Assembly: GCF_000003815.2 (NCBI RefSeq)
Contig: NC_049979.1
Location: forward strand, 1,598,594 to 1,662,593
Direction of reading: 5' to 3'
DNA length: 64,000 nucleotides
Source of the DNA: Branchiostoma floridae
Taxonomy: Eukaryota > Chordata > Leptocardii > Amphioxiformes > Branchiostomatidae
The translations under genes were made by a program, and so were the position numbers. This document shows, piece after piece, positions 440 through 62,179 of this stretch (position 1 is its first letter; the number at the start of each line of letters is the position of its first letter). The notes under the pieces were generated by a model, which worked only from the letters and a program-made list of their open reading frames with translations, searched no databases and had not been told where the DNA came from.

Positions 440-531
440 CTTGAGTATAAGAAGGATCCCCCTGACTGGTTCGCACAGTCTTCCATCAAAGCCTCCAACA
501 GCCAGTGGATCTTTCTGGGGTCCCTGTTTTC
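440..531 (-). CDS. PSME4: PSME4 coding exon 38
   Basis: Residues 1418-1448, [19 protein letters not shown] then GGSFLYS (vertebrates: ESRDPRKLHWLFELLLES, GGSFVD). Last exon in the window; donor GTGTTA, ends in phase 2. Confidence 0.92.
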
Positions 532-3500
532 CTGTAAACACAAACACAACATGTCATATATTATATCCCATTTCATGATATCCGATACGTATTACAATTA
601 TAGTGAGTCTTGTGGTTAAGGGTTGAAGGTACAGATATTTGGACATATTTTAAAAGCCACAAAGAATAAATCTTATCAATTTGTCATGTGTGTTGAAGCA
701 AAAACGAAGGTTTATGCAAGTACAATAGAATGAGGTACTAGAGTATACACTTTCAAGTGGCATGTGGAACTTACTGCAAATCCAGTAGCAACATAAAATA
801 CCTTGTATAAGGTTTTCATCATTGCACCTCAGGGTTTCAAATATGACTTTTAAGTGTGTTGTACTTTCACTGGCTTTATTCTACACAAAGCTGGTCTGTG
901 ATCACCTACCACAGCAGAAGACATGCTCTGTGCCCAGTCTCCTACTGTAGAGAGGGATGTGATAACCTACCACAGCAGAAGACATGCTCTGTGCCCAGTC
1001 TCCTACTGTAGAGAGGGATGTGATAACCTACCACAGCAGAAGACATGCTCTGTGCCCAGTCTCCTACTGTAGAGAGGGATGTGATAACCTACCACAGCAG
1101 AAGACATGCTCTGTGCCCAGTCTCCTACTGTAGAGAGGGATGTGATAACCTACCACAGCAGAAGACATGCTCTGTGCCCAGTCTCCTATGGGATAACCTA
1201 CCACAGCAGAAGACATGCTCTGTGCCCAGTCTCCTATGTGATAACCTACCACAGCAGAAGACATGCTCTGTGCCCAGTCTCCTATGGGATAACCTACCAC
1301 AGCTGAAGACATGCTCTGTGCCCAGTCTCCTATGGTCTCCACCGAAGCGTTGGTCATGACAGTCTTGAGCAGTGGCAGCAGGAACTCGTACAGCTTCTCT
1401 TGCTTTAAAAGACCAAAAAAGAAGAATAAGACTTAGTTGAACTCTCTACCGCACTGCAAAAACTTACAAATGGATCTGTACTGTTCAACAAGACCTGTTG
1501 GGGCAAGAAGTTGCACAGTTCGAGCTGATAGCTGAGTAGCTGAAGGTGTCAGAGGTTTGTGCGTACCTCGTTGAAGGTGTCAGCGGTTAGTGCGTACCTT
1601 GTCAAAGGTGTCAGAGGTTTGTGTGTACCTTGTTGAAGGTGTCAGAGGTTTGTGTGTACCTTGTCGAAGGTGTCAGAGGTTTGTGTGTACCTTGTCGAAG
1701 GTGTCAGAGGTTTGTGCGTACCTTGTCGAAGGTGTCAGGGGTTTGTGCGTACCTTGTCGAAGGTGTCAGAGGTTTGTGCGTACCTTGTCGAAGGTGTCAG
1801 AGGTTTGTGCGTACCTTGTCGAAGGTGTCAGAGGTTTGTGCGTACCTTGTCAAAGGTCCAGTGTTTGGCCCCCCTGATGAGCCCAGCTACTATCTCTGCC
1901 AGGCATCTCTGGCTGAACTCCTGCGTGTCGGCCGCCAGCCGCTCCATGTGGGGCTTGAACAGGGGCAGGAGGGAGTCGTCGTAGTTCCTGAACAAACCCT
2001 GCAAGAAGAGAGCATGATGTCTAATGCTGCACATAGTATATGTCATCCTCTTACGCAGGGACATCCAACACCGAAACCGCCTGTCTGGATGTGCCCTGCT
2101 TTCTCAACCGTCACTTAGTTCCTGTGGAAGAGTATGGAAGAGGGCAACTCATTCAAGTGATACTCATACTGTATGCATACCAATGTATTTTTCTGTTTAA
2201 CTTGAATGAATGGACCTACCTTAAACATGTTGAATCTGCGGTTGCTGAATTTGTCTCTACCTTTCCTGTCCTCCAGTGACAGGAAGCCGATCAGTTTGTC
2301 CACAAACTCCGTGTTGGAGAAGTGGTCGAAAATGATGCCTTCACCCTACAGGGAACAAAGACAAAATATTTCAGTAAGCAGCATCATATTGCGGGTAATA
2401 TCCAACTCCACTATGTTAGGTGATCGACACAGCCGGAATCGAAATCACAGCTTCTAGTTCCAGAGGCAGGGCCTCTAACCACTGGAATACTCATGTATCA
2501 TATCTTGCAACCGATGGACCATGACTTTAAGGCCTGTCCTTAGGCCTACAAGCCTTTACAGTAGCATACATGTGAAAAAGACTGGCATTTGATTTGAACT
2601 CCAGACCTCTTGGTCAAGAGATTTTATCCACTGGACAACACATGCTATACATATAGGCAATACGATGTGCAATATCACCACGAAACAGAATTGAACTAAG
2701 AAGTGAAAGTTGTAGTGTGTTACCTCCAACATGTCCTCTCTCTTCCGCCCCAGCGGAGGCTGCTGGTCTGCAGGTGCGTACGTCAGCATGGGCCTGGGCA
2801 GGGAACAATGAAAACAATGCATGTCAATTATCATTATTGAACGAGTTAAACTGTAATTTCCAACACAAAAATTGGACTCACCCAAATTTTCGACTGAACA
2901 GCACCAGTCTTTGTAAAGGAATGAACAATCCACTGCTGTCGTGATGTCACGCTATGCAGATAGAACATGTGACTCAGTGACCAGTGGATCATAGGTTGCA
3001 GGAAGTCAAATTTGAGTGAGTCCAATTTTTGTGTTGGAAATTACAGTTTAACTAGTTCAATAATGACTTCTACCAACACAGATGAACTTTCAAGTTCAAG
3101 TCAATTATCATTATGTGTTTGTCTTAGTCACTTTCTGCAACTACATTTAACAGGATGTACATGTATGGTACTTAGTCAAAGGCATGCACAGAGACAAAAA
3201 GCTCAAAATGTACAGTCACTGTTTTTATGTCTTGTCCTGTGAGCCATACTCCTGGAGCCAAATGCACCAGCTCAGCAAGCATGAATGATAACACATAAGC
3301 CAAGAAAGTTCTACATTTGGTCATAAGATTTTGAAAGGGCATCCCTCTGCACCAAGGTGCATCCAACTCATTGTCATAATATATACGGTCATATGTATTT
3401 CCCAAAATGTTTCATTGCAGCAGCTTCTTAGAGATTTCCTCATTTATTTTACAGAAGATAAATGTTTTCTGTACTTAAACATCAGGGACAGATTTCTCTC

Positions 3501-6500
3501 TTACTTGGGCCAGGTGTTGAAGCCCCAGTGAGTCTTGTCCACGAAGGTGGTGTTGTCCCACTGGGCCTGAGTCTTGGGAAGCTTGCTGCTGTCGTACTGC
3601 AGCCACTTGTTGTCTCCCCTCTCCCCCAGGGGCACCAGGGAGCCCGGGGGTGGGGGCTGGCACCCTCCTGCACCAGGGACAGGGGAGGAAGTACATGTAT
3701 GCTGTAGTTAGTACTGAATCGCTGTGGGATAATCTCTACAGTAGAGTATTGTAGCACTGTACTTGTCGTCCCTCTCCCCCAGGGGCACCAGGCAGCCCGG
3801 GGGTGGGGGCTGGCACCCTCCTGCACCAGGGACAGGGGAGGAAGTACATGTAATGCTGTAGTTAGTACTGAATCGCTGTGGGCTAATCTCTACAGTAGAG
3901 TACTGCAGTCACTTGTCGTCCCTCTCCCCCAGGGGCACCAGGGAACCAGGGGGTGGGGGCTGGCATGCTCCTGCACCAGGGACAGGGGAGGAAGTACATG
4001 TACACTGTAGGTAGTGCTGAGAACTACTGTAAAATTCATTTATTCATTTTCGAAACATCAGCAGGTGAGAAAAACTGGTTGTGTAAAAATAACCTCTTAC
4101 GTACGCCATTTATTCTTGTGGAGTCACAGTCAAAATAACACGGATGCATAAAAACACATATTTGCTTTGTCATCATTTTGCTGGAGATGCACAGCAAAAA
4201 CCTCCAAAATGATACAATCATCTGATTCAGTATTTGCTACAGTACAGTACAGTTAGAAAAATGTCACACATAGTAAACACACTGTAATATGAAATCACAC
4301 CAAAACACCAAAAGAGTCCTCAGGATTCTGGCAGTGTGAACATTTACCTTCTTTGAAAGGGTCTATCTCCTTCTTCTTGTGTTCCCTTTTCTGCTGCTTC
4401 AAGATGGCGACAACAGCACCGATGGCCATCTGCAATACACAGTACAATGCACAGTGCAATACACACAGAATGTTAGTGGACAACTCAAAGTTCAAAGAAA
4501 TTCTATATGCCAATTCCATACACAAGGAAAGTGACCAATTAATGTAGAAATTCAGACCATGGGACATTTCAACTTGAGGTCAGTGTACTGATTGAGTGTT
4601 TGTTGGTGAGCTCTTTACTTTGTGTGCAAAATGTACAAATCAATTACCGTCACAAATCGGGTGGAAAAAGCTCCACGCAAAAGTAATTGAAGAGGCAGAA
4701 ACAGGCGAAGTAACTTCAAGACTACGTGTAGAAGACAGCAAAACAGCTAAACAATCTGATAAAAGCATGAATGTATGATCACTTTGCAGCTTGACTTGAT
4801 GCATAGCAACAGAATGCCATTGCCATGGAAACACCTGTTACCAAAGACCCACCTTCCTGACTGTGATGGTGTCGTCGACGAGCGACCTGGTGAACATGGC
4901 GACCGCGCGGGGCGGGAGGGGGGTGTCCCTGCGGATCTGCAGAGTCAGCATCCCGATGGAGATCTGCACAAATCTCCACCTCCTGGAAATATTACCCATT
5001 ACCTAGTTAAAACTCAATCTCAAAATGTTGATTCCAAAGAGTCTACATTTGTACATTGTAGGCTACATTTTGTAAAACTGGGAAGGACAAATCTATACTC
5101 TGTACCTAATACATGTATCTTACTTGCAGGGTTTGAGCGAAAACAAAGTTTGACCTCCCGTGTACATCTTGTCATAGATTCTATCTTTCAAGTCCTTTCC
5201 ACACGAACCTGTTTGATAATTATTTTCTTTTGGGTAAGGTACTGACAACTTACTGTTTTTTAGCAACAGGAGATAGTTCATTGTGATGTGAAGCATGTCC
5301 AGTGATTCTTGCAAACTGTTAACCCATGAGGAGCTAACTTCACACGTGTGTCAGTGCCAATCAACTTCATTGGTGAAAGAACACAAAACTAAACATTATC
5401 TGAGTAGACTTACAGTTTTCCAGACTCCAAGAGGTCCAGCAAGGTGTTCACTAGGTCATGGTAAATGCTGAAAAACAACAAGCAAAAGGGTTGAGAAAAA
5501 ATATTTTGAATTCATGGTTTGGGTAAATATTTTCTCAATTCAACATCATTTAGTGAATTTAACATCATCTTCTTTGGTTTACAATCACACTTCTTTCTCT
5601 GCCAGTGTTTCAGCAGCTGCTCTGTGCCTTCATCAGGGACTGCTTTGTCAAAAGCAGCAAGGAGAAGTGGAGTCAAGTTGCAGAACGCATCTTTCTTGTG
5701 ATGATTACATCACAATAAGACAAGTTAACATAACCCTGATGTGCAAGCCAATGTTTCAGCAGCTGTTCTGCGCCATCATTGGGGACAGCTTTGTCACAAA
5801 GAATGCATCTTTCTTCTGATCGATGATTATGTCCCAATAAGACAAGGAGAAAGTTGACGCAGATAACTAGAGCAGCTGCGAAAACGTTAGCAGTTATAGA
5901 AGGTGGTTGTGTACCAAAGTAAACTATCACAATGTACAAGTAAGTATTCAGGGTTCTCCAGACTTACTCCAGGGTTTCCTTGTTCCTTCTCTCCAGGTCC
6001 TTAGCAGCGCCCTCTATCTCCTCTGTGGTGGGAGTGCAGCTGGGGGCTGGCTTCTTGGATGCGAGAACTGCCTTGGCAAGGTCCACACTAGCTTCTGACA
6101 CCTGGAGAGGGATAAACTTCTTTATACAACACTATAAAAACCTGATAAACTACTTATAACTTCATAATCATTATCAGTGTGATTTGTGAAATGTTTGCAG
6201 TGGTTTTATTTTCAGGAAATCATCACACCCCGAATATGAATTACAATGCACATGTGCCATGATTGTAATTGCATTTGTACTACTGCACTACAGAATTGTA
6301 CTACAAACTTTAAACACTGCGAATACCTCCTTTCCCATTCCATTGTGACATTAATAAATTGACAGTACTTCATATTGCCCAATCTATGGAGATGAATTTT
6401 AACTGTGCGGGTTTGAATTCAGAAGGGCGTGAGTTCGATCCCCGGCCAATTCATACCAAAGACTTTTAAAAATGGTACATCTCTGCGTAGTTCTCCTCAT

Positions 6501-9500
6501 TTGGGAAACACTTTCACTTTCACTTTATTTATTTTACCAGTAATTACATCTCAGGCCGGAAATCGGCCTGCTTTTCAGGTAATCCTGGACATAAAAGTAC
6601 AAAGTACACATAGCACATATACAATACATAATAAAATTATCCAATATCAAAGGAAACATTTAGGTAGTTGTGCATACAGAACACTACCAGCAGACTAGCC
6701 CCCTGCTGTAGTGATTGCACGGAATTGTGTGGCCCAGGGATACGTAATGGAGATGGCCGCCACCCAATACGACAACTTTAACTTTAACTTTTACTACCAG
6801 AGTCTTTTCCTGACCTCTGACTGTACGGCGACCGTCTCGTAGTTGCGGTGTATTCTGTCGGTGACATCCTCGATGAGCCGCTGGATGGAGGGCTTCTCGG
6901 AGTGTCCGGCCTGCAGGATGGTCGGCCACAGCTGGCGGATGACCGGGTACTCGCTGGCGCTGGCCAGGCAGCAGCTCCTGGTGCCCAGCAGGACATACAG
7001 GGCACCCTGAAACACGAGATGGGTAGTCATGAAATACATGTCTCATTCATTAGGTAACCCCAGCAGGACATACAGGGCACCCTGAAGCACATGAGAGGGG
7101 GAGACATGAAATACAAGTCTCACTCATTAGGTAATAAACCCTAGCAGAACATACAGGGCACCCTGAAACATATGAGGGGGAGACAATGACATACTAGATG
7201 TCTCACTGACTGAAACATGAGAGGGGGGAGACATGTAATACAAGTCTCACTGACTAGGAAACACATGCAGAACATACAGGGCACCCTGAAGCACATGATG
7301 GGGAAACAATGACATACTTCATGTCTCACTGACTAGGAAACACATGTAGGACATACAGGGCACCCTGCAACACATGATGGGGAAACAATGACATACTAGA
7401 TGTCTCACTGACTAGGAAACACATGCAGGACATACAGGGCACCCTGAAACATGAGAGGGGGAGACATGTAATACATGTCTCACTCATTAGGTAACCCCAG
7501 CAGGACATACAGGGCACCCTGAAACATGAGAGGGGGAGACATGTAATACAAGTCTCACTGACTAGGAAACACATGCAGAACATACAGGGCGCCCTGAAAC
7601 ATGAGAGGGGGGGAGACATGTAATACAAGTCTCATTAGGTAACACATGCAGAACATACATGTTCTCGTACTCGTTCATGTACTCGTAGACTCACATGTTC
7701 GACTGTTTGCTGACGATTGCTTGATTTATCGAACTATCAGCAAGCCTTCTGACGCACAAGGGCTGCAGTCTGACCTTGATGCGCTAACAGAATGGCAAAA
7801 TCGTTGGCTCATGTCGTTCAACCCCTCTAAATGTCACATCCTCCATATCACCCGTAAAAAGCACCCCATCATAACTCAGTACTCCCTCTGTGGAGAAGCC
7901 CTTACCGGTGTTAAGTCCCACCCCTATCTTGGAGTACAACTGTCCGACGATTTGCGGTGGGACACCCATATCAACCACGCCACTAGCAAAGCTGGTAAGG
8001 TCCTAGGAGTCATTCGGCGCAACTTGACCCATTGTCCATCTAGGGTCAAGGCCACTTGTTACAAAGCGCTGGTACGGCCTCACTTGGAATATAGTGCCAT
8101 CGTCTGGGACCCGTACACCAACAAAGGGATACAGGCGGTGGAGGCCGTCCAGCGCAGGGCAGCCCGAGTGACCCTAAATGACTACCGGCAGACTAGCAGT
8201 GTGACACAAATGCTTTCAGACCTGCAGTGGCGCCCTCTCTCCGAAAGGAGGAGGAACGCCCGCCTCACCTTTTTCTATAAAGTAGTCAACAATAATATTA
8301 ACATAGACGCCAGCAATATTCTGAAGCCTGCCCAAGGGCGCACCCGGGGTAGTCACGACTTCAAATATCAACACATATTTGCACGCACCGATATCTACAA
8401 ACATTCTTTTTTCCCACGCACAATTCCCGAGTGCAATGCCCTGCCTGGCACGGTTGTAAGCGCTCCCAACGTTGAGCACTTCCGTGCCAGGCAGGCGGCC
8501 TGCCCGCCCTAACCCGGGAGCCTCAGCTCCCCCCCCTACTTTTGCCCCTCGCGGGGTCATTTGGGGGTAACTTATGCAGATGCAGACATGCAGAACATAC
8601 AGGGCACCCTGCAACATATGAAGGGTAGTCATGACATACATGTCTCACTCATTAGGTAACCCTAGCAGGACATACAGGGCACCCTGTAACACATAAGGGG
8701 GAAGACAATGACATACCGGATTTATCACTCTTTATAGGTAACACATGCTGATGAGGGGTAGCCATGACACACTACATGTCTCACTAGGAAACACATGCGG
8801 GACATAAAGGGCACCCTGAAACATATGTGGGGGAGACAATGACATACATTGTATACCATATGTCTCACTGACTAGGAAACACATGCAGGACATACAGGGC
8901 ACCCTGAAACATGAGACGGGTAGTCGTGAAATACATGTCTCATTCATTAGGTAACCCTAGTAGGACATACAGGGCGCCCTGTAACATGAGAGGGGGAGAC
9001 ATGAAATACAAGTCTCACTCATTAGGTAACCTAGCAGGACATACAGGGCACCCTGAAGCACATAAGGGGGAAACAATGACATACTAGATGTCTCACTGAC
9101 TAGGAAACACATGTAGGACATACAGGGCACCCTGAAACATGAGAGGGGGGAGACATGTAATACAAGTCTCACTCATTAGGAAACACATGCAAGACATACA
9201 GTGAACCTCCTTTGGGAGTAGCACACCAGCTTTGTACAGTAGGTACATGCTGTGTCAGCCCAGACTGTAGGGTTTGATCCACTAACACTGGGATGGACCC
9301 CAACTCTTTTCAATAAGTGTGGTGGGTTCTTAAATGTGCTTGAGGCGTTAAATTCTCCTTAAACACAGGACCGGCTCTGTGTCTTTCTAGAGAGGACCTA
9401 ACCACAGTGTCACCTGTGTCAAGTGAGGACATAGTATCAAAGAGTCTCTTCCATGGGCAAGACATTGGGGCCTGCCAGAGATTCAAGACCATAACCTTTA

Positions 9501-24500: not shown

Positions 24501-25497
24501 ATATATGTAAATAACACTAACCCACCACATTCACTTGTCTTGTCTTTTGCACCCACAGATCAGTTGTTTATGTTCCTTTGTGTTTTTTTGCCGTTGTTTT
24601 CCCTATGTTTGTATGGCATTAGCACCTGTTACTAACAAACATGCGCACTGCTATTAATCCCCGTCAAGGGGGCTAAGCAGTAGAAAAGAAGAGAACAAAA
24701 CATATGCAGCCGTGCTTGAGTAACTTTTGTATTGATGACCATTTTTTAAGCACTCATGCTCTTCTGATTAAGATGTGAAACGTATCATAACTAAGTTGCT
24801 ACAGCACTTTTAAGTTACTTCAACACTTTTAAGTTACTATGGTACTTTTGAAGTTACTTCAGCACTTTCTACCTTACCACAACACTAAGTTCCAGCAGCA
24901 CTTTTTAAGTTTTTAAGTCTTACTTCTCTAGTACAAAAGGCAGGATGAGGTCGGGTCTGATGAGATCCAGGTTCTGATTGATTGATTGATGATTTATTGA
25001 TTAATTCATGATTGATTGATTGATTGATTGAGATCGAGTCTTACTTCTCTAGCACGGGAGGCAGGATGAGGTCGGGTCTGATGAGAGCCAGGTTCTGATT
25101 GATTGAAGATTAATTGATTAATTGATTGATTAATTGAATGATTGATTGATTGATTGAGTCTTACTTCTCTAGCACAGGAGGCAGGATGAGGTCGGGCCTG
25201 ATGAGAGCCAGGTTCTGTAGTGCCTGGGCTGTGATTGATTAATTGATTGATTGATCGATTGACTGATTGATTGATTGATTGATTGATTGACTGAGTCTTA
25301 CTTCTCTAGCACAGGAGGCAGGATGAGGTCGGGCCTGATGAGAGCCAGGTTCTGTAGTGCCTGGGCTGTGATTGATTAATTGATTGATTGATTGATTGAT
25401 CGATTGACTGATTGATTAATTGATTGATTGATTGATTGAGTCTTACTTCTCTAGCACAGGAGGCAGGATGGGGTCGGGTCTGATAAGAGCCAGGTTC

Positions 25498-25537
<40 letters not shown>

Positions 25538-41510: not shown

Positions 41511-41568
41511 ATGGCGGCGTCCGTCAGACTTGTGTCGGTTGATTATGAAGTTTTCGGCAAAGTGCAAG
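41511..41568 (+). CDS. Acylphosphatase coding exon 1
   Basis: Start ATGGCGGCG; codes MAASVRLVSVDYEVFGKVQ. Donor GTTGGA; ends in phase 1. Confidence 0.92.
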
Positions 41569-48381: not shown

Positions 48382-48419
48382 TCATCGCTGGATGGCAGCC
48401 GCCATGATGCCTGCTACAC
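48382..48419 (-). CDS. EIF3K: EIF3K terminal coding exon
   Basis: Codes (S)[11 protein letters not shown] then TGA, aligning with vertebrate SVSSVMASSQ. Acceptor CATACAG; the phase joins the previous exon exactly. Confidence 0.85.
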
Positions 48420-51400
48420 CTGTATGGGAAAAGCACAAATCTTGTCATCGCTGCTTTTTTTCTACAAAATATTCAGTTACTAGTAACACTGGTATGGCAG
48501 TCTGCTATGCAGAGCCTTGTTCACGGCCTGTGCAGTATACAGCTTTATCCTGTATGGGAAAAGCAAAAATCTTGTCAGCCTTGCTTTCTGTACAAAGCTT
48601 CGTATAGCATTCTCCAATGGAGAACCTTGCCCTCCTATACATTATATGCTGGAAAGACTCTAAAATCTTTACCTTTGTGGGATGGCCTCAGCTTTACCTG
48701 AAGAAAGCATTTAACAGGCAATTTGGATCCCCACGCTGTGGTGATTGCAAAATGCTGTGTGGCCTGATGCACTATTTAACCAGGCTTTTAGCCAGGCATG
48801 CGTCAACGCGTCATCTGGACGCACTTTTCTTAGAATAACAAGAAATTTGATGCCCCTGGACGCCCTATACTGGGTAGAAAATGTCTGAAAAGCATGAAAT
48901 TCTGATTGACCAGGGATGCTATCAGGTCATCTGTGGGCACAGTCTTCTACTGTGACATCTGTAACAGTATTTTTGCCTCTTGGGATACCTAAGAATGCAC
49001 TGTTTTAACTTAAAAACCATGAAAAACTCTGCAACATGGAAGGTGGATGCCCCCAGACCCCCCTACAATAGTCACTTACCGCGACTCACCAATAAGTTCG
49101 GACTCCCTATTATAAAATCCTAGCTAAAAGCCTGTATTTAACTAACTACTCCCCTGGCTACTGGGGTGCGATGTTAGTACAGTGTAGCACTTACTCTCGA
49201 AGTCAATCTTCTCCACGATGTTCTTGGTCTTTACGTTCTCCTCCTGATTGGCCAGGAAGACGAAGCCTTCGCTGTCGTCCCGCCAGCCGTACTTGTTCAT
49301 CCACTGCTTCAGCTGCTGATCTGGAATTTGAAGAAAAAAACATCAGCAAGTTTTCTAAAATTACTTGTCCTATCAGGCAAGCACATAAAAATTTACTTGC
49401 CCGAACCAATTTTCCACTCGCCCAAAATTCAAATGTCACTTTTATATGCATTTTCACTTCCAGCAATGGAATTAGTGATTCAAGTATAGCAAAATCTCTC
49501 TCAATGGAAAAATCTTACTTGCCCGATCAGGCAAGTTGAGGTAGGTCATGCACTTGCCCTGGACAATGCCTAGGGCTAGTGGATTTGTCCAACCCTGATC
49601 AGGAATTTCAACTGATGGCCATTTGTTTTGCATAACCTTCAGTCATAACACCAGTTTTGTACAGTAGGTACAAGCTGTGCAAGACCAAACTAGTATAAGG
49701 TTTGATCCACTAACACTGGGATGGACCCCTACTCTTTCTTGTGATGTGATCTTTAACATATTTGGGATGTGGCATTCCTAAAATATGGCACCTACACCTT
49801 TTTAGAAATGTTTAAACACAACAACAACAGATTTATGCTACCACTACACAAATGACCAAGAGAAAGTACTCAATACAAAACGGCTAGGTATAATGTATGG
49901 AACGGTAAGAACAAAATTGGACAAAGTTTCAAATTGTAAAATGTCTTTTTTAATACTTTTATATAATAGTTGTTTGCATCTTTCATAACTTATAAATCAG
50001 ACATGCAATTTCCCTCCTCACTTGGAAATACATCAGAATCACCAGACCTTACCATCTATGTCTCCCAGCAGTTCCAGTAGTGTCTGCTTGTCTATCCTCT
50101 GGTAGGTGATGCTGACAACATGGCAGATAACTGCAATCCAGCACAGAAGGGTTTAGTGAAGCACATGTAAAACTATGTTCTTAGTACTTATCAAAGGAAC
50201 TTCATGTACATCTTCTTCAAATATCTATCCCCTAAGTCATCCTTTAAACACTAAATCTATGTTGGTTACATCAAGGTTTTGTTTGGAAGCAGAGTCTGTG
50301 TGGTGCAATGGCTAGAGCGCCGATATCAGAATCAGTAGGTCCTGAGTTCTAAACTCGCCATGCCTCTTCCCCCATGACGGTGGAGTGACGCCCACCGAGC
50401 CTCACGGCTAATCTGTCAAAAAGGGTGCCCAAAACACCTACGGATTTGGTGCTGCCAGTGAGTCAACATCTGCACACTTGCCACTAAGACCCGTGATTTT
50501 TTTTAATTTGGAAGCAGGGGGAAAGGTAAAGGATACATATCCCATTTGAAACATACCCTTTCATTGAAGCATACCCTTTCATTGAAGCATACCCTTTTAT
50601 TGAAAACTAAATGAATCATTAATCCTTACATTTCCTGACGGAGTCCTCAAACCCCGAGACGCCCTCGATGACTTCAGGTGTGAGAGCGATCTCCTTCTGC
50701 AGAGGGAACAACACAAGTTCTTAATCAAGACACTTCCTACAGAGTAAAACTCAAAACAGCTCTTCAACTTGCTGGAAGCTTTGTGCTAGGACACAAAAGG
50801 ATATCTGTATCTATATAGCTGTATAACCTGTATAACCGCCGTTCGGCGTAACACACCAGTTTCGCAGGCACGCGACGCGGCAGCAGCTGGTTATATTACA
50901 CTGAACGACCCGTCACACCTAACTTTTGCACATCTATCTGCAAGCGTTCTTTAAAACTGTCCAGAAAAGATGCCCAAGATGCTATTTCAATGGGCATTTC
51001 TCAATGTTTGATGATTTACAAGATGTACATAATTGAGTACTAAGTATAAAGGGTTCAAATGTCCCAAAACAGAATTTTGTGATGATGATGACTAGTTTTT
51101 TACTTGACAAATTTGACTTGGACTGGAAAATAACAAGATTCTAAGCTTCCTGGAGCTTCTAACAGCCACAGGGATGAATCATGAGGCATTCGGTTTGGGA
51201 GGACAACTTGTAAAGGTGTTGATACACCTGTTTTGTCCTCCCTTCCACTTGTTTTTGCATGTGGTAAATTCAAATAAAGAAATAAAGAAATAAAGAAATG
51301 TATGCTTGATGAAACATACAGATGACGGGACTTAAAGAGATGAGCGTTACAAGTCATAGTAAACACATCAGCAGAAATACCCAGCCTACCCAGAAGTTCT

Positions 51401-54400
51401 TGAACTGACACGTCTCCAGAAGGTCGGCCAGGAAGGTCACTCGGGTGATCATCTCCTCCTCTTGCTGAGGTCATAGGTCAAGGGTCAGGTCATGTTTCTG
51501 TGTTTTATCATCTTGGTTTTTACACTGTGAACCTATTCCTATTAGACATGTGTGTATGTGTGTCAATGGTGACAATTACATCCTGTCTTTTAGTACACTG
51601 ACTGCTATATTAGTATGATAAAGTATTTCCTGTATTGTGCATTGATTGATTTATCAATAGCTTGGTTGGTTTATAAATGACTGATTGATTGATGAAGATT
51701 AGACATCCAGGTAATTAGATATGCCAAAAAGCAGTTACTCAAGCAACTGGATATGATTTTGGAAACGGNNNNNNNNNNNNNNNNNNNNNNNNNNNNNNNN
51801 NNNNNNNNNNNNNNNNNNNNNNNNNNNNNNNNNNNNNNNNNNNNNNNNNNNNNNNNNNNNNNNNNNNNNNNNNNNNNNNNNNNNNNNNNNNNNNNNNNNN
51901 NNNNNNNNNNNNNNNNNNNNNNNNNNNNNNNNNNNNNNNNNNNNNNNNNNNNNNNNNNNNNNNNNNNNNNNNNNNNNNNNNNNNNNNNNNNNNNNNNNNN
52001 NNNNNNNNNNNNNNNNNNNNNNNNNNNNNNNNNNNNNNNNNNNNNNNNNNNNNNNNNNNNNNNNNNNNNNNNNNNNNNNNNNNNNNNNNNNNNNNNNNNN
52101 NNNNNNNNNNNNNNNNNNNNNNNNNNNNNNNNNNNNNNNNNNNNNNNNNNNNNNNNNNNNNNNNNNNNNNNNNNNNNNNNNNNNNNNNNNNNNNNNNNNN
52201 NNNNNNNNNNNNNNNNNNNNNNNNNNNNNNNNNNNNNNNNNNNNNNNNNNNNNNNNNNNNNNNNNNNNNNNNNNNNNNNNNNNNNNNNNNNNNNNNNNNN
52301 NNNNGAGGATAGTCTCCAAGCAGACTCTACGGTGCCTTAGAGATAGTATCAAAGCTGGCCAAGGAGTATAGCCGGCACCAGGTGCCCGTTTGACTCCCTT
52401 TGGTCGGCTATACTCCTTGGCCAGCTTTGATACAATCTCTAAGGCACCGTAGGGTTTGCTTGGAGACTAAGGTGAGGGGACGGTAATAGGACCTTTGTGA
52501 GACACTTTTTATACTTGGTATCTTTTGTGGATACCAGAAAAAGAAGCAGACCTACTGGGTTGGCGTCCCAAAGAAATAATAACATACAAGCTATCAGAAA
52601 GCAACTTGCTATTAAATCTTCAAAAGAAAGAAGAAAATTGCCAGTCACCCAGAGGGCCAGAGCAGGTGGCTAACATGTTTACCAGAGTGCTAAGCAGACC
52701 TTTCAGTTGAATTTTACATTCAGTTCTTCTCATGTTATACTTATGTTGACTTATGTTATTTGATTGTTTTGTAATTTTAAATGGACTACAGGAAGAAAAG
52801 ATTTTCATTTGTAAAGTCAAATTAGAGATCGCAATAAACAAACAAACAAACCTACTCTGTGTGATTGGCAGATTCCTATAGCTTTTTGGGTTGGCTTGCG
52901 CTGTTTTTTTTTTTTACCACTCTTTTGTTTTATGTGGCCAAACTTAATCCATAAAGCACCAGACAACTTGAATGCCCGGTTTGCCTTGTTGTACTTTATT
53001 TTCCCCTCAACAGGTATCTTTCTGTTCAAACAAACTAATGACAACTTGCAAAGTACACTGACTGTGACAAGGAAAGATGTCAATGAGTTTGTATAATTAG
53101 CCCATTCTCAATATATGACAATTAACGTACAGTTTGAGGACCGCCAGGTTGGTATATAAGGTAACGTAGTACAGTTTGTTTGTTTGTTTGTTTGTTTGTT
53201 TAAGGTAACCTACTGTTTGAGGACTGCCAGGTTGGTATATAAGGTAACGTACTACAGTTTGTTTGTTTGTTTAAGGTAACGTACAGTTTGAGGACAGCCA
53301 GGTTGGTATATAAGGTAACGTACTACAGTTCGTTTGTTTGTTTGTTTGTTTGTTTTAGGTAACGTACAGTTTGAGGACAGCCAGGTTGGTATATAAGGTA
53401 ACGTACTACAGTTCGTTTGTTTGTTTGTTTGTTTGTTTTAGGTAACGTACAGTTTGAGGACAGCCAGGTTGGTATATAAGGTAACGTACTACAGTTTGTT
53501 TGTTTGTTTGTTTGTTTGTTTAAGGTAACGTACAGTTTCAGCACAGCCAGGTTGGTATATAAGGTAACGTACTACAGTTCGTTTGTTTGTTTGTTTGTTT
53601 GTTTTAGGTAACGTACAGTTTGAGGACAGCCAGGTTGGTATATAAGGTAACGTACTACAGTTCGTTTGTTTGTTTGTTTGTTTGTTTTAGGTAACGTACA
53701 GTTTGAGGACAGCCAGGTTGGTATATAAGGTAACGTACTACAGTTTGTTTGTTTGTTTGTTTGTTTGTTTAAGGTAACGTACAGTTTCAGCACAGCCAGG
53801 TTGGCCTCCAGGTCGTAGGTGTTCTCCTTGCACTGCAGGTCCACATACCGCTCCAGGGTGGCCAGGTTCTCTGGGTTGTATCTGGGAGGGAAACAAGATG
53901 GTCAGGCAAGGATGCATACTAACATTATATCACAGCTAACATCTCTATACCTGTGTTATAACCATGTGGTACTGTAAATGCCAAAAGTTCACGGGGATTT
54001 AATTTGGCGGGAGCGGGGAAAGGACTTTTTGCGGTGGTTTTAAGTTCGCGCTAGCACCATGCACTGTAGTCTCTTAATGCTATGGAAAAATGTTTGCGGT
54101 GGTTTTAAGTTTGCGGTAAATTTACAACGCAAAAACCACAAACATAAAACCACCGCGAACATTTCTGCATTTACAGTAGTTATAAGCCCTTTCACAGAGA
54201 TCAGAACACATGTGAGGCGACAGGAATTCTAGGTAATATGTCAAAGGCAACGGACCCGAAAAAGAAAACAAAAACCGTCTTGACATCGTTATGCAAATTG
54301 AAACAATAGTCAAGACAATAAGTCAATGACTGTTTTCATTTCACTGCCTTTTAATGCCTTTGACATACTAGTATTACCTAGAATTATTGTCACGGCCAGC

Positions 54401-55158
54401 TGGTCACCGCACATGCGTTCTGATCTCTGTGAAAGGGCTTTTACCAGCTGTACAGATACTGATAGTGATACTAGGGATATGAGAAACAAACAGCATATTT
54501 TTTAGATATTTCATAATAATTTCACATCTTGATGGGTGGTGGTAACAGTGGTGTTCAAGTACGGCCTACCGTCCTTGCCCAACAGCTCTGAGCTTTTGTG
54601 GCGACAGTGATAGCGGTCATGATTTGTAATCCGCCGCCCCGGGTCCGATCCCGGGTGTCGGCATGTTTGTTTCTTTCTGTTCTTACTCGCCCCTCTCAAT
54701 TTCTACAGGTGGTATCATAAGTGTGCATCCCTTTCCAGAAAATCTGCCCCCCTCCCCCATACACACACACACATAATTTAACACTTCCGAACGACATGAA
54801 ACGTTCAACGCCGTCTTTCCACACTTATGATCCTTGATGTTACGAGTGGCCCTCACAACGAAATAAATCTCCACTGAATTACTTCCTACAACCAAAAATT
54901 ATCAACAGATTATGGCAAGCATGAAGCAGTACCACAGTACAGCATGAAAACCCACTTGACATATGGGCGAGAACCCTTCTTCTTCTACCCTCCCTTTTTA
55001 GGCAGCCCAACAGACACCTTGAAACCTCAATACGTTCCTCAGTACATCTAGTCATCACCAAACTATGTTTTGCGTTACTGAGGGTGAAAATATAGCAGCA
55101 TTTACCTGTCAATTCCGTGCAGTAGCTCTGCGACTGATGCTCTCATAGCCTCCGCCAT
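48382..55158 (-). CDS. EIF3K: EIF3K, eukaryotic translation initiation factor 3 subunit k (one exon missing)
   Basis: eIF3k is a small PCI/winged-helix subunit of the eIF3 complex, which binds the 40S ribosome during initiation; k pairs with subunit l at the complex edge (family knowledge). Seven coding exons were placed: 55106-55158, ~53779-53881, 51390-51464, 50630-50696, 50053-50130, 49195-49320 and 48382-48419. They match vertebrate eIF3k in order: [82 protein letters not shown] and a short alanine-rich tail. The ~40-residue segment after LKLY (QFNP... of vertebrates) is not found and probably lies in the gap at 51769-52304. It shares a 249-bp head-to-head promoter with the next gene. Confidence 0.95.
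48781..49134 (-). mobile_element. MITE family 3 copy, inverted relative to 11814-12158
   Basis: Ends CAGGCTTTTAGCCAGG and TAGCTAAAAGCCTG. Lies in the last EIF3K intron, 60 bp from the preceding exon. Confidence 0.8.
49195..49320 (-). CDS. EIF3K: EIF3K exon (WMNKYGW ... EKIDFE)
   Basis: Begins [13 protein letters not shown], contains [18 protein letters not shown]. Donor GTAAGT; ends in phase 1. Confidence 0.95.
49344..49597. mobile_element. MITE family 2 copy
   Basis: Ends CAGCAAGTTTTC and TTGTCCAACCCTG; 24 bp upstream of the EIF3K exon acceptor. Confidence 0.65.
50053..50130 (-). CDS. EIF3K: EIF3K exon ([13 protein letters not shown])
   Basis: Codes [20 protein letters not shown] then LLGDID. 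Donor GTAAGG; ends in phase 1. Confidence 0.95.
50286..50510 (+). mobile_element. tRNA-derived SINE
   Basis: A-box-like TGGTGCAATGGCTAGAG (50301-50317) and B-box-like GAGTTCTAAACTC (50344-50356), then an unrelated body ending in a T-rich stretch. Confidence 0.6.
50630..50696 (-). CDS. EIF3K: EIF3K exon ([11 protein letters not shown])
   Basis: Codes [20 protein letters not shown] then RK. Donor GTAAGG; ends in phase 1. Confidence 0.95.
51390..51464 (-). CDS. EIF3K: EIF3K exon ([11 protein letters not shown])
   Basis: Codes [20 protein letters not shown] then FKNFW. Acceptor CCTCAG, donor GTAGGC; phase 0. Confidence 0.94.
51769..52304. other. Assembly gap (N), probably hiding an EIF3K exon
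   Basis: Both flanks are foldback elements (51697-51768 and 52310-52469). The missing EIF3K exon is expected between 51465 and ~53778. Confidence 0.9.
52310..52469. mobile_element. Foldback element beside gap
   Basis: Arms TAGTCTCCAAGCAGACTC / GTTTGCTTGGAGACTA with inner GGCCAAGGAGTATAGCCG repeated inverted; the loop is ~35 bp. Confidence 0.8.
52470..53125. other. EIF3K intron 2, part
   Basis: No exon matching the missing EIF3K segment is seen on either strand. Confidence 0.5.
53125..53800 (-). repeat. Junction minisatellite: EIF3K exon 2 end plus donor, ~9 extra copies
   Basis: Units of ~60-75 bp contain the exon tail on the complement (CTGGCTGTCCTCAAACTGTA and variants), the donor region GTACGTTACC, then a (CAAA)n run. 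Confidence 0.92.
53779..53881 (-). CDS. EIF3K: EIF3K coding exon 2
   Basis: Codes [20 protein letters not shown] then [14 protein letters not shown]. The donor is ambiguous: GTACGT (exon end 53783) is the stronger match, GTTACC (exon end 53779) would keep the Tyr codon whole. Confidence 0.88.
53970..54178. mobile_element. MITE family 11 copy
   Basis: Ends TACTGTAAATGC and GCATTTACAGTA; relative of 23793-24003. EIF3K intron 1. Confidence 0.8.
54184..54440. mobile_element. Foldback MITE (arms AAGCCCTTTCACAGAGATCA)
   Basis: The arm at the left is reverse-complementary to TGATCTCTGTGAAAGGGCTT at the right; the inner CCTAGAATT and TGACA blocks are also inverted. Lies 5 bp after the previous MITE. 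Confidence 0.8.
54545..54680 (+). mobile_element. tRNA-like SINE fragment
   Basis: GGGTCCGATCCCGGG resembles a T arm / B box, with a weak acceptor-like pairing of GGCGACA and TGTCGGC. The D-arm region is missing, so it is not a tRNA gene. Confidence 0.4.
55106..55158 (-). CDS. EIF3K: EIF3K coding exon 1
   Basis: Start in AAAATGGCGGAGG; codes [17 protein letters not shown] (vertebrates: MAMFEQMRANVGKLLKGID). Donor GTAAAT; ends in phase 2. Confidence 0.93.
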
Positions 55159-55407: not shown

Positions 55408-55454
55408 ATGCCAGTGAACATTCAGCAGAAGAAGAGGGTTGAAGACCGATACAA
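55408..55454 (+). CDS. Unknown gene, coding exon 1
   Basis: Codes MPVNIQQKKRVEDRY. Context ACCATGC; donor GTGAGT; ends in phase 2. Confidence 0.75.
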
Positions 55455-58400
55455 GTGAGTTGTTTATGTGAAAGGGACTGAAACTGTTGCACCAACTTAA
55501 AAAACTCCACTTGTGAAATTTCATCTGCCACTTGACTAACCCTTCCAGCATACGTGTTTGTTGCAAAACCCTTACTACCTGCTCGAACTATGAAGTTTAG
55601 AAATTCCATACATCTGTTACCACTCGTGGGTTTAACGCCTAAATTTGTCCAATTTTCATTTAAGTACGAAGAAAAAATTGGTGAAAAGTTGAACCTGTTA
55701 CTCAAAACATTGACAGGTGGTTTTTTGGTGACGTTTGGTGAATAAGAACGGTCGCGGTTTGTCACCTAAAATTACTCGATCAGAAAACTGCAACATGCCA
55801 GAGAAAACGCTTCATCTCCAATCTACGATCTTCGGTGCAATGAATATTTCATCGGCGTTGTCGGAGTCACGTTATATTCTTTACAAACTTGTCAAGATTG
55901 TTTTGGCAGTGGGAATAAAATGGCGGCTTTATCGAGTTTGGGTTCGGATTAGACAAACAAAAGTCGCTCAAAGGGAGGCTAATTCTGGCCAGACGACGTG
56001 TATTATTTGCTGGTTCTGCTAGGTTAACCTCGTTTGTTGTACCCTCCTTGAAGAAAAATCACACCCTTCTTAAGATCTCTCCGCGCCCTCCGGGGTTTTC
56101 ATTGTCACGTCAAGTGGAACGATCCACCTGTTGCACGAACTTGTGTGACAGGTAAAGGTAAAAACGTTTGAGTATGTTTCCTTTCGCTTCATCATGATTC
56201 GCAGTATGCAGCGCCAATGTTTACCTAGCAAACCTTAACAAATCACCATCCCGTGTATTCTGCCAGGCCTGGCCTCAATCCGTCCATTCCCTGCCACCCA
56301 CCATAGCGGCATTGAAAGCAGATCTGATAGCTACAGAAAGGAGAAGACCGATCAGCGGGCTTAGGAACATCCGTGTTTTCTATGCGCGAGGATCATACTT
56401 GGGGGTTTAGAAAAGCCAATGGTCCGTGAAAGATGCAACATGACTTATACCAAGGAGCTTTAAAAGCCATTTTAAAGCTCCTTAACTTGTTTATACATGT
56501 TAAGGCTGGACAAATGAAGTCATTTGTTTAACAGACAGCTGGGGTAAAATCTACAAGTAGGTCTTGCTTTTACCAGTAGAGAAATTTTCAATCTTTTTGT
56601 TTCATGTAACGTTATATTTGACAAGTCATGCAGTGTCATTCACAGTTAAAGATATTGGACCTGAAAACAGGAACTTGAGCAATTAAATAATTAATCAACT
56701 TGCACCATCTAAGTTTTTTTAAATTGACAACAAGAAGGAAATGCAGTCTAGAGCATAACCTTGTTTGCAGAAATTAGACAAAGGTATTTAAGTTTTTTGA
56801 TGATGTTCTATTTAATATTTATCACCTCTTTTTATTCACCTGTCACGGGCTCTATTGAAAGCAGCCCAATTCAGCTCAATGGACTATCCATATATATGCA
56901 ATATTGGTATTAAAATATGCAATATTGGTATTAAGATATTCAATATTGGTATTAAAATATGCAATATTGGTATTGAAATATGCAATATTGGCATTAAAAT
57001 ATGCAATATTGGTATTAAAATAAATGAAAATAAGTAATTAAGTACAACATGCAATGCGCTTCTTGCGGCCCACCTAATAGTAAATTAATGAATCAGTCAA
57101 TTAATCCGAGATTCAATCAAATCGATTAATCTTGGTTAGTGAGAGATTATGTAAACATAGGCAACAGGTAACAACACAATTCTCGGCACCTTGGTAAATG
57201 ATAATCATCTTCGGGAGGGACGTAAAACGGGGGTCCCGTGCTCGAGGAGGTGCCTCGACCACGTAAATCAGCCTCATTACCCAACACATTGGGTACCTAC
57301 TGGCTTGCAAAATACACCAGATGTAATGATAAATAATAATAATACACGTAATTCTGTTGTCTGTTTTTGCCAGTCCCAACACATACAGGATCTTCAATGA
57401 CACCATCCCAGATGCCAGCCTACCCCCCCTGGCCAAGCCACCCCCTCCGGCCAAGCCGACAGGCAGGGAGACGCCCCCCCTGCCCATCAAGAAAGACGGG
57501 GAGACCCGGGGGAACATGCCCCACCCCCTGGACGTGGGATTCCTTAGGAAGGACCCTCGACTCATCAACGAACCGATCTGCCACGTCAGCACGTGGGACA
57601 CGGCACACATACAGCACCAGTGGTGGCCGGATAAGGTAGGCTAATTTTTTTGTTTGTTTTTTTGTTATTAGGTTTGCTGACTACTCTCTCTTGGCAGCCA
57701 GGGGCTGAATTGTGAGGAGCTTACAATAGGCGGAGCTAAATCGCAAGTGTCTGGAGCGAGCTGCCATTTGGTGCAACTCAGGTGACCTCAATACGACAGT
57801 TATTGCCCCAGATGCGGCCAGGGACTGTAGGTTTTTGAACCACTCACACCGCACCATCACACGTGTGGCGGGTTCTTTATCGTGCTCGAGGTGTGGCTCT
57901 CCCCAAACACGGGACCTCCATTTAACGTCCTATCCGAGAGACGGCCCTAGCCGAACCTAGTCCTAACTAGTACTCATTAACAAAGTCATTAGAAACAATT
58001 TGTCATGTTGAGCATATAGATTTGTCAGTCTGTCAATCAAGGACATCATATTGAAATCATTGAATCATTGACAAACCCATCAACTAGCATTTACCCATTT
58101 GTATCATCACTTATTGGGACATAACACATATCCAACAAATGACAAGACATCACTCAAATAGGTAAGAAGAACAAATCATCACTGACAGTGACATCAATGT
58201 CTCAATTTGCCTGACAGGTACCAGATGACACCAGGAAACAGCCGAACTTCGACCCCTCCACGACCCAGAGGGCGGACTACCTGCTGAAGGACGGGACCCC
58301 GCCTGGACAGACCAGACACGCCAGCAACCCTAACATTTCCCCAGCACATGGCATAGGTAAGAACCAGCAACCCCAACACTGTACCTGCACATGGCATAGG

Positions 58401-60274
58401 TAAGCATCACACACCAGCAACCCTAACACTGTACCTGCACATGGGATAGGTAAGGGTGGCACCATATATTCCTATTGTGTTCTGACAACGTTATGTTCAG
58501 TGGCACCCCAACGTTTAACGACACCCTAACATAAGGGTGACAAACACGGGTATTATGTTATAGGTAAGAGCCAGCCTAGCCTGGTATCCAGCCATAATAT
58601 AGTTCCTGAGTCTCTTCTCTCCTCTCCACAATTACGTAATTGTGGAGAGGAGAGAAGAGACTCGGGAACTATAGTATGGCTGGATACCAGGCTAGAGCCA
58701 TCCAACATGGGTTAACACTATAGTATCTGCCACCTGTTTTTTGTGGCAATATTTTGTATATCGACTGCTTGACAATTTAAAGTTTATATTCAACAGTTAT
58801 GACAATCATTAACAATAACATTGAAAAAAAATATATGTGCTGAGCTGTTCCTTTTGCTTCCAGCTCCCGTGACGTTTCTGCGCCCGCGGAGCGCGGAGGG
58901 GCCGCGGGTCCTGCTGGAACAGATCTCGTACCAACACCAGTACAACAGCAGGCTGGACCCCAACCAACCAATCAGGGCCAAGGTGAATACACTCTGTCAG
59001 ACAGTCATGACTTCAAGTACCAGAGTTACCAACCTAGGATTGATGTGTTCAAAAATTTGTATTTTTCCAGAACTATCGTAGAGTGGAATTTGTTATCACC
59101 AAGTAGAGTAGGGGCCTCTTCTCTGGGTAGTTTTAAAGAACACTAACGTCTTGCAGATAGATGAGCAAAAGGTAGCTGTGACGTTCAGTGTAATATAACC
59201 AGCTGCTGCTGTGTCATGTGCCCCAGTTAAGAATCTTCATTGTAGTCTTTTAATATCGTATCTAAGAGCAAAGTTTTTAGCCTGGAAAGAACTTCAAATT
59301 CATATGTTGTTCCTTCTCTGTCCCTACAGCGCCATGGCAGTTTTGTGTGGAGCAACTTGAAACCGTCCGTCCCGTCCGAGGTCACGTCAGAGGCCAGCTC
59401 GTCCCACGCCTCATCGCAGGAGGGTTCGCGCCGGTCGTCCGCCGCCCTGGAGGGGCCCAGAGAAGCCCTGGTGCCCGCGGAGGAGCCTGAGGGGAGACTA
59501 GAGGACACCTGGCACCCGCAGACGCCTGGTGACCAGACTACAGAATCTCCTGCACCACAGGAGCCTAACGCATCCGTCCTTCCTGCACCCAAACCGAAAG
59601 CTCTGACACCGAAAGCCTCCAAACCGACGTCCATCATCCACTCCCCAGAGGCGAAACCTCAGGCAGGGAACGGGCGCTCCCCGGCGGGATCCAAGCCAGG
59701 TTCCGCCGGCGGGTTCTCCACGGGCTCGAAGCCTCTGTCGGCAGGCTCGCAGCATCCGTCCAGAGCGCCGTCAGCAAAGTCGCTCCAGTCCGCCCTAGCG
59801 GCCGGGATGCCGCAGCTGACCAGGGCTCCATCGGGGTCACAGGTCGTGTCGGGGTCACAGGTCGTGTCCGCCCCTACATCCAGGCGGTCGAGCGCCGGGT
59901 CCCTGAGGCCGCCGTCCGACCAGCTGGGCACGCCGGTCAGACTTCCGCCGGGCAAATCCATCCAGGACCTGCAGGGGCCGCTCAAGCTGCAGGTGCCGTC
60001 GGGAACCACAGGTGAGCCGCAGGTGCCCGCACCTGTGACGTGTGCGTCACCTGGTGGAGCCACGTCGCACGGAGGCAGCCCCACTTCCAAGAGGAACATG
60101 ACGCCCGTTGCCACGGAGGTGTTTGCGCCGGCGGATTTGTACCGTCCGATGAACTCCCGTCCCGAGAGCATGAAGTCGTCGCGGAGCAGTGGTCGGGGTT
60201 CGCGGAGAGCACGTGCTTCTCCTGGGTCCGTCCACGCGCAACCGATGTCCGACACACTGCCACCTGTCGGCTGA
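55408..60274 (+). CDS. Unrecognised ~503-aa Ser/Pro-rich protein, 5 exons
   Basis: I do not recognise the family. Exons 55408-55454, 57374-57635, 58218-58356, 58864-58982 and 59330-60274 sum to 1512 nt with closed phases. The N-terminal ~185 residues look conserved in style: NPNTYRIFND, a Pro-rich linker (PPLAKPPPPAKP), MPHPLDVGFLRKDPRLINEP, CHVSTWDTAHIQHQWWPDK, then NFDPSTTQRADYLLKDGT and LLEQISYQHQYNSRLDPNQP. The C-terminal ~315 residues are Ser/Pro/Gly/Ala-rich and probably disordered, with short repeats such as SGSQVVSGSQVVS and a basic RSSGRGSRRARAS stretch. There is no signal peptide or membrane segment. The start codon is supported by the head-to-head layout with EIF3K and a short first exon. 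A cytoskeletal or ciliary role would be a guess. Confidence 0.8.
55455..57373. other. Unknown gene, intron 1
   Basis: Apart from the 21-bp repeat at 56885-57035, nothing is recognised. Confidence 0.4.
56885..57035 (+). repeat. 21-bp tandem repeat, ~7 copies
   Basis: Unit TATGCAATATTGGTATTAAA plus one base, with minor variants. Confidence 0.9.
57374..57635 (+). CDS. Unknown gene, coding exon 2
   Basis: Begins PNTYRIFNDTIPDASLPPL and ends IQHQWWPDK. Acceptor TTGCCAG, donor GTAGGC; phase 0. Confidence 0.85.
57840..57975 (-). mobile_element. SINE-like dispersed repeat fragment
   Basis: Reverse relative of 21085-21330 and 38390-38660 (GGTGTGGCTCTCC, ACCTCCATTTAACGTCCTA). Confidence 0.5.
58218..58356 (+). 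CDS. Unknown gene, coding exon 3
   Basis: Codes VPDDTRKQPNFDPSTTQRAD through HASNPNISPAHGI. Donor GTAAGA; ends in phase 1. The exon end is copied twice downstream. Confidence 0.85.
58318..58455 (+). repeat. Junction repeat: unknown-gene exon 3 end plus donor, 3 copies
   Basis: Copies of CCAGCAACCCTAACA, GCACATGGCATAG and GTAAG at 58321, ~58364 and ~58412. Confidence 0.88.
58577..58694. mobile_element. 118-bp near-perfect palindrome
   Basis: TAGCCTGGTATCCAGCCAT at the left is inverted at the right; the centre is CCACAATTACGTAATTGTGG with no loop. Only a few mismatches between arms. Confidence 0.85.
58864..58982 (+). CDS. Unknown gene, coding exon 4
   Basis: Codes PVTFLRPRSAEGPRVLLEQI then SYQHQYNSRLDPNQPIRAK. 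Acceptor CTTCCAG, donor GTGAAT. Confidence 0.85.
59011..59145 (+). mobile_element. LINE C-terminal fragment
   Basis: Codes DFKYQSYQPRIDVFKNLYFS then RTIVEWNLLSP and a stop, aligning with [20 protein letters not shown] of the LINE at 7660. Confidence 0.8.
59330..60274 (+). CDS. Unknown gene, coding exon 5 (terminal)
   Basis: 945 nt, begins RHGSFVWSNLKPSVPSEV and ends SDTLPPVG with stop TGA 60272-60274. Markedly GC-rich, Ser/Pro/Gly/Ala-rich. Acceptor CCCTACAG. Confidence 0.85.
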   Translation, partial: RHGSFVWSNLKPSVPSEVTSEASSSHASSQEGSRRSSAALEGPREALVPAEEPEGRLEDTWHPQTPGDQTTESPAPQEPNASVLPAPKPKALTPKASKPTSIIHSPEAKPQAGNGRSPAGSKPGSAGGFSTGSKPLSAGSQHPSRAPSAKSLQSALAAGMPQLTRAPSGSQVVSGSQVVSAPTSRRSSAGSLRPPSDQLGTPVRLPPGKSIQDLQGPLKLQVPSGTTGEPQVPAPVTCASPGGATSHGGSPTSKRNMTPVATEVFAPADLYRPMNSRPESMKSSRSSGRGSRRARASPGSVHAQPMSDTLPPVG

Positions 60275-61380: not shown

Positions 61381-61383
61381 TAT

Positions 61384-62175: not shown

Positions 62176-62179
62176 AATT

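Follow-up and report, generated by a model that had tools for sequence, protein, structure and literature searches.

Tandem copies spanning splice junctions in four genes of a Branchiostoma floridae window

We analysed a stretch of 64,000 nucleotides from Branchiostoma floridae (contig NC_049979.1; hereafter the window), in which short tandem repeats lie across exon-intron junctions of four genes: PSME4 (proteasome activator subunit 4), an acylphosphatase-2-like gene (ACYP), EIF3K and CMIP6 (ciliary microtubule inner protein 6). Duplications crossed junctions more often than random placement gave, an excess that is real in this window, with a magnitude that depends on the null model. The results come from one 64 kb window of one gapped assembly, and the reader who chose the window had already noticed the pattern.

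Splice junctions copied into adjacent introns

One hundred junctions were mapped (51 donors and 49 acceptors), and at each a 24-mer, half exon (12 bases) and half intron (12 bases), was sought within 3 kb to either side, a match being at least 19 of 24 positions. As listed below, a further copy in the adjacent intron was found at 13 of the 100 junctions, ten of them donors (PSME4 exons 11, 19, 20, 23, 26, 37 and 38, EIF3K exon 2, ACYP exon 3 and CMIP6 exon 2) and three of them acceptors (PSME4 exons 19, 29 and 34). Three more junctions were borderline, namely the PSME4 exon 13 donor and the acceptors of ACYP exon 4 and EIF3K exon 8. Each hit junction had 1 to 33 matching copies in the window besides the authentic one, and unit lengths ran from 31 to ~157 bp, in agreement with the 31 to ~160 bp given by a model's first-pass annotation of the same sequence. 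In stacked copies the exon edge, the splice site and the start of the intron were all repeated, and the authentic site was the one adjoining the exon. Together with the 24-mer test, the stacked copies bore out the annotation's claim that all four genes carry junction-spanning arrays. It had listed 15 junctions, with PSME4 exon numbers one lower than ours; 13 of these were confirmed, and PSME4 "exon 12" (exon 13 here) and ACYP exon 4 were only borderline.

897..1335, minus strand: PSME4 exon 38 donor-type array; donor 1298; units of 48 and 61 bp; 7 copies plus the authentic one
1544..1857, minus strand: PSME4 exon 37 donor-type array; donor 1846; 31 bp unit; 9 copies plus the authentic one
3594..4020, minus strand: PSME4 exon 34 acceptor-type array; acceptor 3667; ~150 bp unit; 2 copies plus the authentic one
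6984..9207, minus strand: PSME4 exon 29 acceptor-type array; acceptor 7006; units mostly 74-79 bp; 14 copies plus the authentic one
11498..11674, minus strand: PSME4 exon 26 donor-type duplication; donor 11634; 88 bp; one copy, with GT changed to AT; AGAC microsatellite
13333..13806, minus strand: PSME4 exon 23 donor-type array; donor 13774; 45-49 bp unit; 9 copies plus the authentic one
15560..15773, minus strand: PSME4 exon 20 donor-type duplication; donor 15697; offset 128; join is a 34 nt insert with (TTTG)n
16360..16572, minus strand: PSME4 exon 19 donor-type duplication; donor 16511; offsets 144 and 157
16622..17205, minus strand: PSME4 exon 19 acceptor-type array; acceptor 16726; ~150 bp unit; 3 copies plus the authentic one; joins with (AAAC)n
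23065..23323, minus strand: PSME4 exon 13 donor edge copy, borderline; donor 23302; 22 exon nt plus GT only; 235 bp off
24919..25707, minus strand: PSME4 exon 11 donor-type array; donor 25641; units of 89-145 bp; 6 copies plus the authentic one; joins with (CAAT)n
42638..46635, plus strand: ACYP exon 3 donor-type array; donor 42672; 68 bp unit; 34 copies including the authentic one; two blocks, two N gaps
47182..47361, plus strand: ACYP exon 4 acceptor-region repeat, borderline; acceptor 47360; 72 nt, offset 108; ends 2 nt into the exon
48419..48587, minus strand: EIF3K exon 8 acceptor-region repeat, borderline; acceptor 48419; 39 nt, offset 130; ends 1 nt into the exon
53123..53804, minus strand: EIF3K exon 2 donor-type array; donor 53779; 83 bp unit; 7 copies plus the authentic one; (AAAC)n
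58316..58454, plus strand: donor-type array at the second mapped exon of CMIP6; donor 58356; units of 43 and 50 bp

The CMIP6 array has two copies besides the authentic one by eye, of which one reaches the 24-mer threshold. In the repeats of ACYP exon 4 and EIF3K exon 8 the breakpoint falls almost exactly on the acceptor site. The exon 29 array of PSME4 consists of two blocks, parted by a stretch with a reverse-transcriptase-like fragment; positions 7643-8509 between the blocks hold an open frame with a weak RVT_1 match (25.2 bits, below the cut-off of 29.6).

A sensitive local alignment, with the other junctions as null, placed 17 of 96 junctions above the 99% line, compared with 1 expected, and 13 of these 17 matches crossed the junction. 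Four of the 100 junctions were omitted, two flanking EIF3K exon 3 (including that of the EIF3K array) and two with the intron unmapped. Weak matches just over the line were seen at the PSME4 donors 24091 (exon 12, on one side only) and 20520 (exon 15, counted among the 13 that cross), and are possibly old or due to chance. The observation that lancelet junction-spanning tandem copies exist in the window holds.

The association with junctions and the reverse-transcriptase-like fragment within the exon 29 array could point to introner-like or transposon-derived repeats aimed at splice sites. Such an origin is barely credible, as the units are contiguous local sequence and, within the window, every 24-mer match of all 13 junctions was confined to its own array, none being found on the opposite strand.

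The arrays are instead lancelet "mirage" minisatellites, a kind already described; the first-pass annotation had pointed to such repeats in amphioxus, and they are published (PMC3087553, PMC3902484). In the window the unit spans the boundary (at 13 junctions, with three borderline), the copies contain GT or AG, and the host is a lancelet, its PSME4 being identical to that of B. floridae. In the report on globins, mirages are tandem repeats over exon-intron boundaries, a name credited to Adh3, and its reference list points to further loci in retinol dehydrogenase and presenilin; it describes 6 and 3 units in two haplotypes, RT-PCR (reverse transcription polymerase chain reaction) results suggesting that regular splicing is undisturbed, and a suggestion that mirages may be general in cephalochordates (PMC3087553). 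Repeats of 60 and 108 bp are described at PGBD5, where troponin C is also cited (PMC3902484). The available text on amphioxus huntingtin mentions tandem repeats, none of them at junctions (PMC2206037), and that on arrestin contains nothing on junction repeats (PMC5501109). Like the mirages described for Adh3, BflGb6, BflGb9, PGBD5 and troponin C (PMC3087553, PMC3902484), the present units join exon edge, splice signal and intron, either boundary is affected, units reach ~160 bp, and copies are homogenised within arrays. Unlike those reports, our analysis covers four new genes, a density of 13 per 100 junctions and a placement test. For Adh3, length polymorphism and somatic instability have been reported, whereas our data are from a single assembly. 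Our searches of an open-licence library yielded no genome-wide count, rate or placement test of mirages, and the reports that we saw go gene by gene. What is new in the window is the four genes, the density of affected junctions, and evidence that survival bias alone is insufficient for the excess. The annotation had also called the behaviour pervasive; this stands for one 64 kb window only, with generality in cephalochordates suggested earlier (PMC3087553).

Misassembled haplotypes or collapsed repeats might imitate such arrays. The ACYP array contains two of the four N gaps, and a third borders an intronic 24 bp array; the PGBD5 repeat number differed between two assembly versions (PMC3902484), and the draft assembly of one globin array was aberrant (PMC3087553). 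However, the copies in the window show ordered variants and differing unit lengths and end in unique flanks, new reads upheld the PGBD5 sequence (PMC3902484), and the globin array was found in both haplotypes (PMC3087553). An assembly artefact is thus very improbable as the source of the arrays, though their copy numbers may be wrong. A copy number of up to ~40, as claimed in the annotation, is plausible, with 34 copies seen in the ACYP intron 3 array and its two assembly gaps.

Placement of duplications relative to junctions

After masking of microsatellites, duplication events were detected as ungapped repeats offset by 15-600 bp at a score threshold of 20, compared with a best score of 15.5 in two dinucleotide-preserving shuffles. 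The 31 resulting clusters were reduced to 24 events: 3 lay outside gene bodies, 3 were merged within the same array and 1 was dropped beside an N gap. We classified the events and set their unit lengths by hand, and an event was called junction-spanning when it had at least 6 nt on both sides. In the null model, each unit was dropped at random wherever it would be intronic or cross exactly one junction.

With uniform placement over the four gene bodies, 13 of 24 events were junction-spanning compared with 2.7 expected (p=1.2e-7, odds multiplier 11.8), and 16 of 24 had any junction overlap compared with 3.1 expected (p=4.6e-10). The same placement gave 1.7 expected against 12 observed among the 16 events scoring at least 35, and 1.9 expected against 10 of 16 in PSME4 alone. 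When placement was matched for GC, 3.1-3.3 of the 24 were expected to span a junction, again compared with 13 (p <= 3.6e-7). Tandem Repeats Finder rows alone (period at least 15), also with hand-assigned classes, had 11 of 19 junction-spanning, with 1.5 expected.

These counts bear on an explanation by survivorship only, in which short tandem duplications have a uniform origin, those in exons are purged, and those across a junction persist because an intact junction is left. Among the detected events there was no wholly exonic cluster and no engulfed exon, and the authentic site adjoins the exon in stacked copies, all as this explanation would have it. Yet the null model already confined units to survivable positions, and 13 events were seen where 2.7 were expected. 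The excess was also greater in the high-scoring arrays, where decay should hide least, and Tandem Repeats Finder reported one 18 bp repeat within a CMIP6 exon (57417-57457). Survivorship as the whole cause is unlikely, and in its pure form it fails in the window.

Several results weigh against a strong preference for junctions. A rotation test, in which the exon map was turned under the full array lengths, is a harsher null, and it weakened the bias to 14 of 24 events compared with 8.6 expected (p=0.0036) when the exon 13 event was counted as spanning, and to 13 of 23 compared with 8.3 (p=0.008) without that event. The share of repetitive sequence over all positions was 17% in introns and 13% at junctions, and repetitive 60-mers were found at 25 of 112 intronic sites and 17 of 96 junctions. 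The position of the junction within the unit fitted a uniform distribution (p=0.14), with no sign of a fixed break site. GC at the exon edge was 0.60 at hit junctions compared with 0.55 elsewhere (p=0.07), not clearly higher, and intron length and intron-start GC were no different at hit junctions. Finally, in a window picked by its reader, the excess may be high for the genome as a whole.

No whole exon was engulfed by an array, compared with 7.2 expected under rotation. The introns look as repetitive as the junctions because the arrays fill the introns: the 13 arrays account for 7084 of the 7955 repetitive intron positions, and of the 38767 intron positions elsewhere 2.2% are repetitive. An enrichment at junctions on a per-base count of all intron positions was not upheld, introns being as repetitive as junctions. 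The event count is the fairer measure, though it rests on clustering and hand-assigned classes. The placement and rotation tests agree with the first-pass annotation that the association with junctions goes beyond random duplication in this window. Its impression that units centre on junctions was not supported. A preference for donors (10 compared with 3 acceptors, p=0.11) was not accepted. Exons at hit junctions were longer (median 153 compared with 96 bp; p=0.004, in a comparison of four features), and longer exons and slightly GC-richer edges are compatible with a process that has one end in an exon.

Copied splice sites, joins and a possible origin

GT or AG was kept in 87 of the 88 listed copies, in line with the "nearly all" of the annotation, and this could suggest that selection keeps the copies as spare splice sites, be it as decoys, for recursive splicing or as regulated alternative sites. 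In the columns up to 10 nt from the junction, those of the splice dinucleotides had 1 change in 32, compared with 46 of 198 other columns at donors and 32 of 90 at acceptors, but this 10 nt frame overruns the end of homology in some arrays. When only the homologous part was considered, there was 1 dinucleotide change compared with 4.7 expected (P=0.05-0.06). Other GT or AG pairs within the units were about as stable, with 6 changes in 34 sites compared with 1 in 16 at the splice sites. Unit lengths showed no frame preference, multiples of three occurring in 5 of 13. A strong unadjusted mismatch contrast was set aside, its intron part being swollen by indels and by positions beyond the homology. 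Intact GT or AG is therefore borderline and at most weak evidence of selection; maintenance by selection is quite unlikely, and the copies may be intact mainly through youth. On the genomic sequence alone, the sites adjoining the exons yield the annotated PSME4 protein exactly.

The joins between units were then read in eight donor-type arrays, where 17 joins were tried and 15 read. Four joins (exons 38 and 23) had 0-3 nt of shared sequence, and five contained inserts, of 13 nt (exon 38, 61 bp units), 34 nt (exon 20), 30 nt (exon 26), and 25 and 67 nt (exon 11). The remaining joins, six in EIF3K, CMIP6, exon 37 and one exon 23 copy, were small or unreliable; by eye, the exon 37 join shares ACCTT. 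It also tells against the proposed origin that join reading failed or was misread in ACYP, in EIF3K, which is complex, and in exon 37, where it was anchored in a neighbouring copy.

Microsatellites were frequent in the arrays. Eleven of 13 lay inside junction arrays, corresponding to five of seven loci (p=1.3e-3), and all eleven were tetranucleotide repeats. The five loci are as follows.

11586-11629: microsatellite in a junction array
15654-15687: microsatellite in a junction array
17054-17082: microsatellite in a junction array
24975-25537: microsatellite in a junction array
53174-53770: microsatellite in a junction array

The inserts at exons 20 and 11 consist of a tetranucleotide microsatellite, of which the intron past the last copy has a short stretch or none; at exon 26 the intron past the last copy has similar imperfect repeats, and in the exon 19 acceptor array a stretch of (AAAC)n stands at the joins. 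The sequence is compatible either with a microsatellite older than the join or with one made at the join.

Growth of the arrays by exchange is visible in EIF3K. Units 1-3 of the exon 2 array are exactly identical to units 4-6, which means that a 249 bp block, with the authentic donor inside it, has recently been duplicated. The inner units of this array are identical and its end unit is divergent, and in exon 38 four 61 bp units are identical. Six arrays were compared and concerted evolution was found, exons 11 and 29 being more diverged. The exon 11 array has, by eye, two different exon breakpoints, and this junction may therefore have been struck more than once.

For the origin of the mirages, we give an even chance to a combination of duplication by microhomology or fill-in with one end in the exon, unequal exchange, tolerance, and an exon-linked mutational bias. 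First, a break or polymerase switch near an exon edge would be repaired so that 30-150 bp over the junction are joined head to tail, with very little homology used or a short insert left. Unequal exchange or slippage would then enlarge the array, a step partly seen in EIF3K, and the authentic junction can join in. The array would be tolerated because the authentic splice site still adjoins an intact exon, and the copies would stay intronic. Duplications wholly within exons are presumably purged by selection, a filter that would not suffice alone, and duplication, or its retention, would be favoured when one end lies in an exon.

Our best guess is that the bias is mutational and exon-linked, with breaks or repair intermediates anchored in exons. 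Exons are GC-richer here (0.574, compared with 0.421 in introns) and should match better between lancelet haplotypes than introns do. One candidate route would be breaks with fill-in, as at Cas9 breaks (PMC8355091). The fill-in duplications described there resemble ours in being short and head-to-tail, and little homology at the join would result; they arose at Cas9-induced breaks, and the abstract draws no tie to splice junctions or array growth. The second candidate would be aborted homologous repair in which a partner is found in exons and not in introns, a route suggested by the extreme difference between haplotypes of the Chinese lancelet, where single-nucleotide polymorphisms amount to 4.39% and small indels to 9.29% of the genome (PMC4284660). 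The stronger claim, that the duplication process strikes or persists across junctions about ten times more readily than in introns, perhaps by repair anchored in exons because haplotypes match there and not in introns, is put forward tentatively, and we lean against it at present. Intron gain by tandem duplication, as described for potato RdRp (PMC4974935), likewise duplicates an intron-exon boundary with its splice signals, whereas the copies in the window sit inside introns and the authentic site is retained.

Host genes and implications

The genes in the window were mapped as follows.

440..40793, minus strand: PSME4 (proteasome activator subunit 4); 39 exons within the window; contains 10 of the 13 junction-spanning events
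41511..47471, plus strand: acylphosphatase-2-like gene (ACYP); 4 exons, 41511-41568, 41955-41971, 42539-42672 and 47360-47471
48385..55158, minus strand: EIF3K; exons 55106-55158 and 53779-53881, then 51390-51464, 50630-50696, 50053-50130, 49195-49320 and 48385-48419
57402..58982, plus strand: CMIP6, part; coding 57402-57635, 58218-58356 and 58864-58982, read by eye

Spliced alignment of the B. floridae PSME4 protein P0001 gave 39 exons whose translation agrees with it at 1487 of 1487 residues; exon 39 was ended by hand at donor 440. P0001 (1487 aa) is the isoform ending inside the window and was first matched through a conserved stretch near 1.9 kb, and a longer PSME4, P0002 from a B. floridae hybrid, extends past the window. 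EIF3K exon 3 was not found in the window, and its inferred position is the N gap at 51769-52304. In the annotated B. floridae EIF3K protein P0005 (251 aa), ~70 residues are the exon 2 array (53123-53881) read through as protein, and EIF3K of the hybrid and of B. lanceolatum has 218 aa without array sequence. This is a warning for annotation, as the B. floridae protein includes array sequence read as protein.

The gene left unnamed in the first-pass annotation is CMIP6 (Pfam PF15667, E=1.4e-33, 116.8 bits compared with a cut-off of 27). Position 57402 is the start of its first coding piece and not a mapped junction, and a Pfam search of the three plus-strand frames of 58990-64000 and 55200-57402 gave no further match to it. 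PSME4, the ACYP2-like gene and CMIP6 are close neighbours within 440-58982; their human counterparts also lie close together, on chromosome 2p16, and this would be conserved microsynteny. Elsewhere, positions 60955-61293 hold a Mos1-type transposase helix-turn-helix domain (HTH_48, above the cut-off), perhaps a mariner remnant, and a 163 bp array of ~3.6 copies lies outside the mapped genes at 62198-62740.

If the excess holds genome-wide, lancelets would be a natural test bed for the duplication of splice sites and for how wrong sites are ignored, and would also inform how introns and exons may arise. If a junction-favouring process is true, it would provide a steady supply of spare splice sites as raw material for new exons and introns, and the same would be predicted in other hyper-heterozygous animals.

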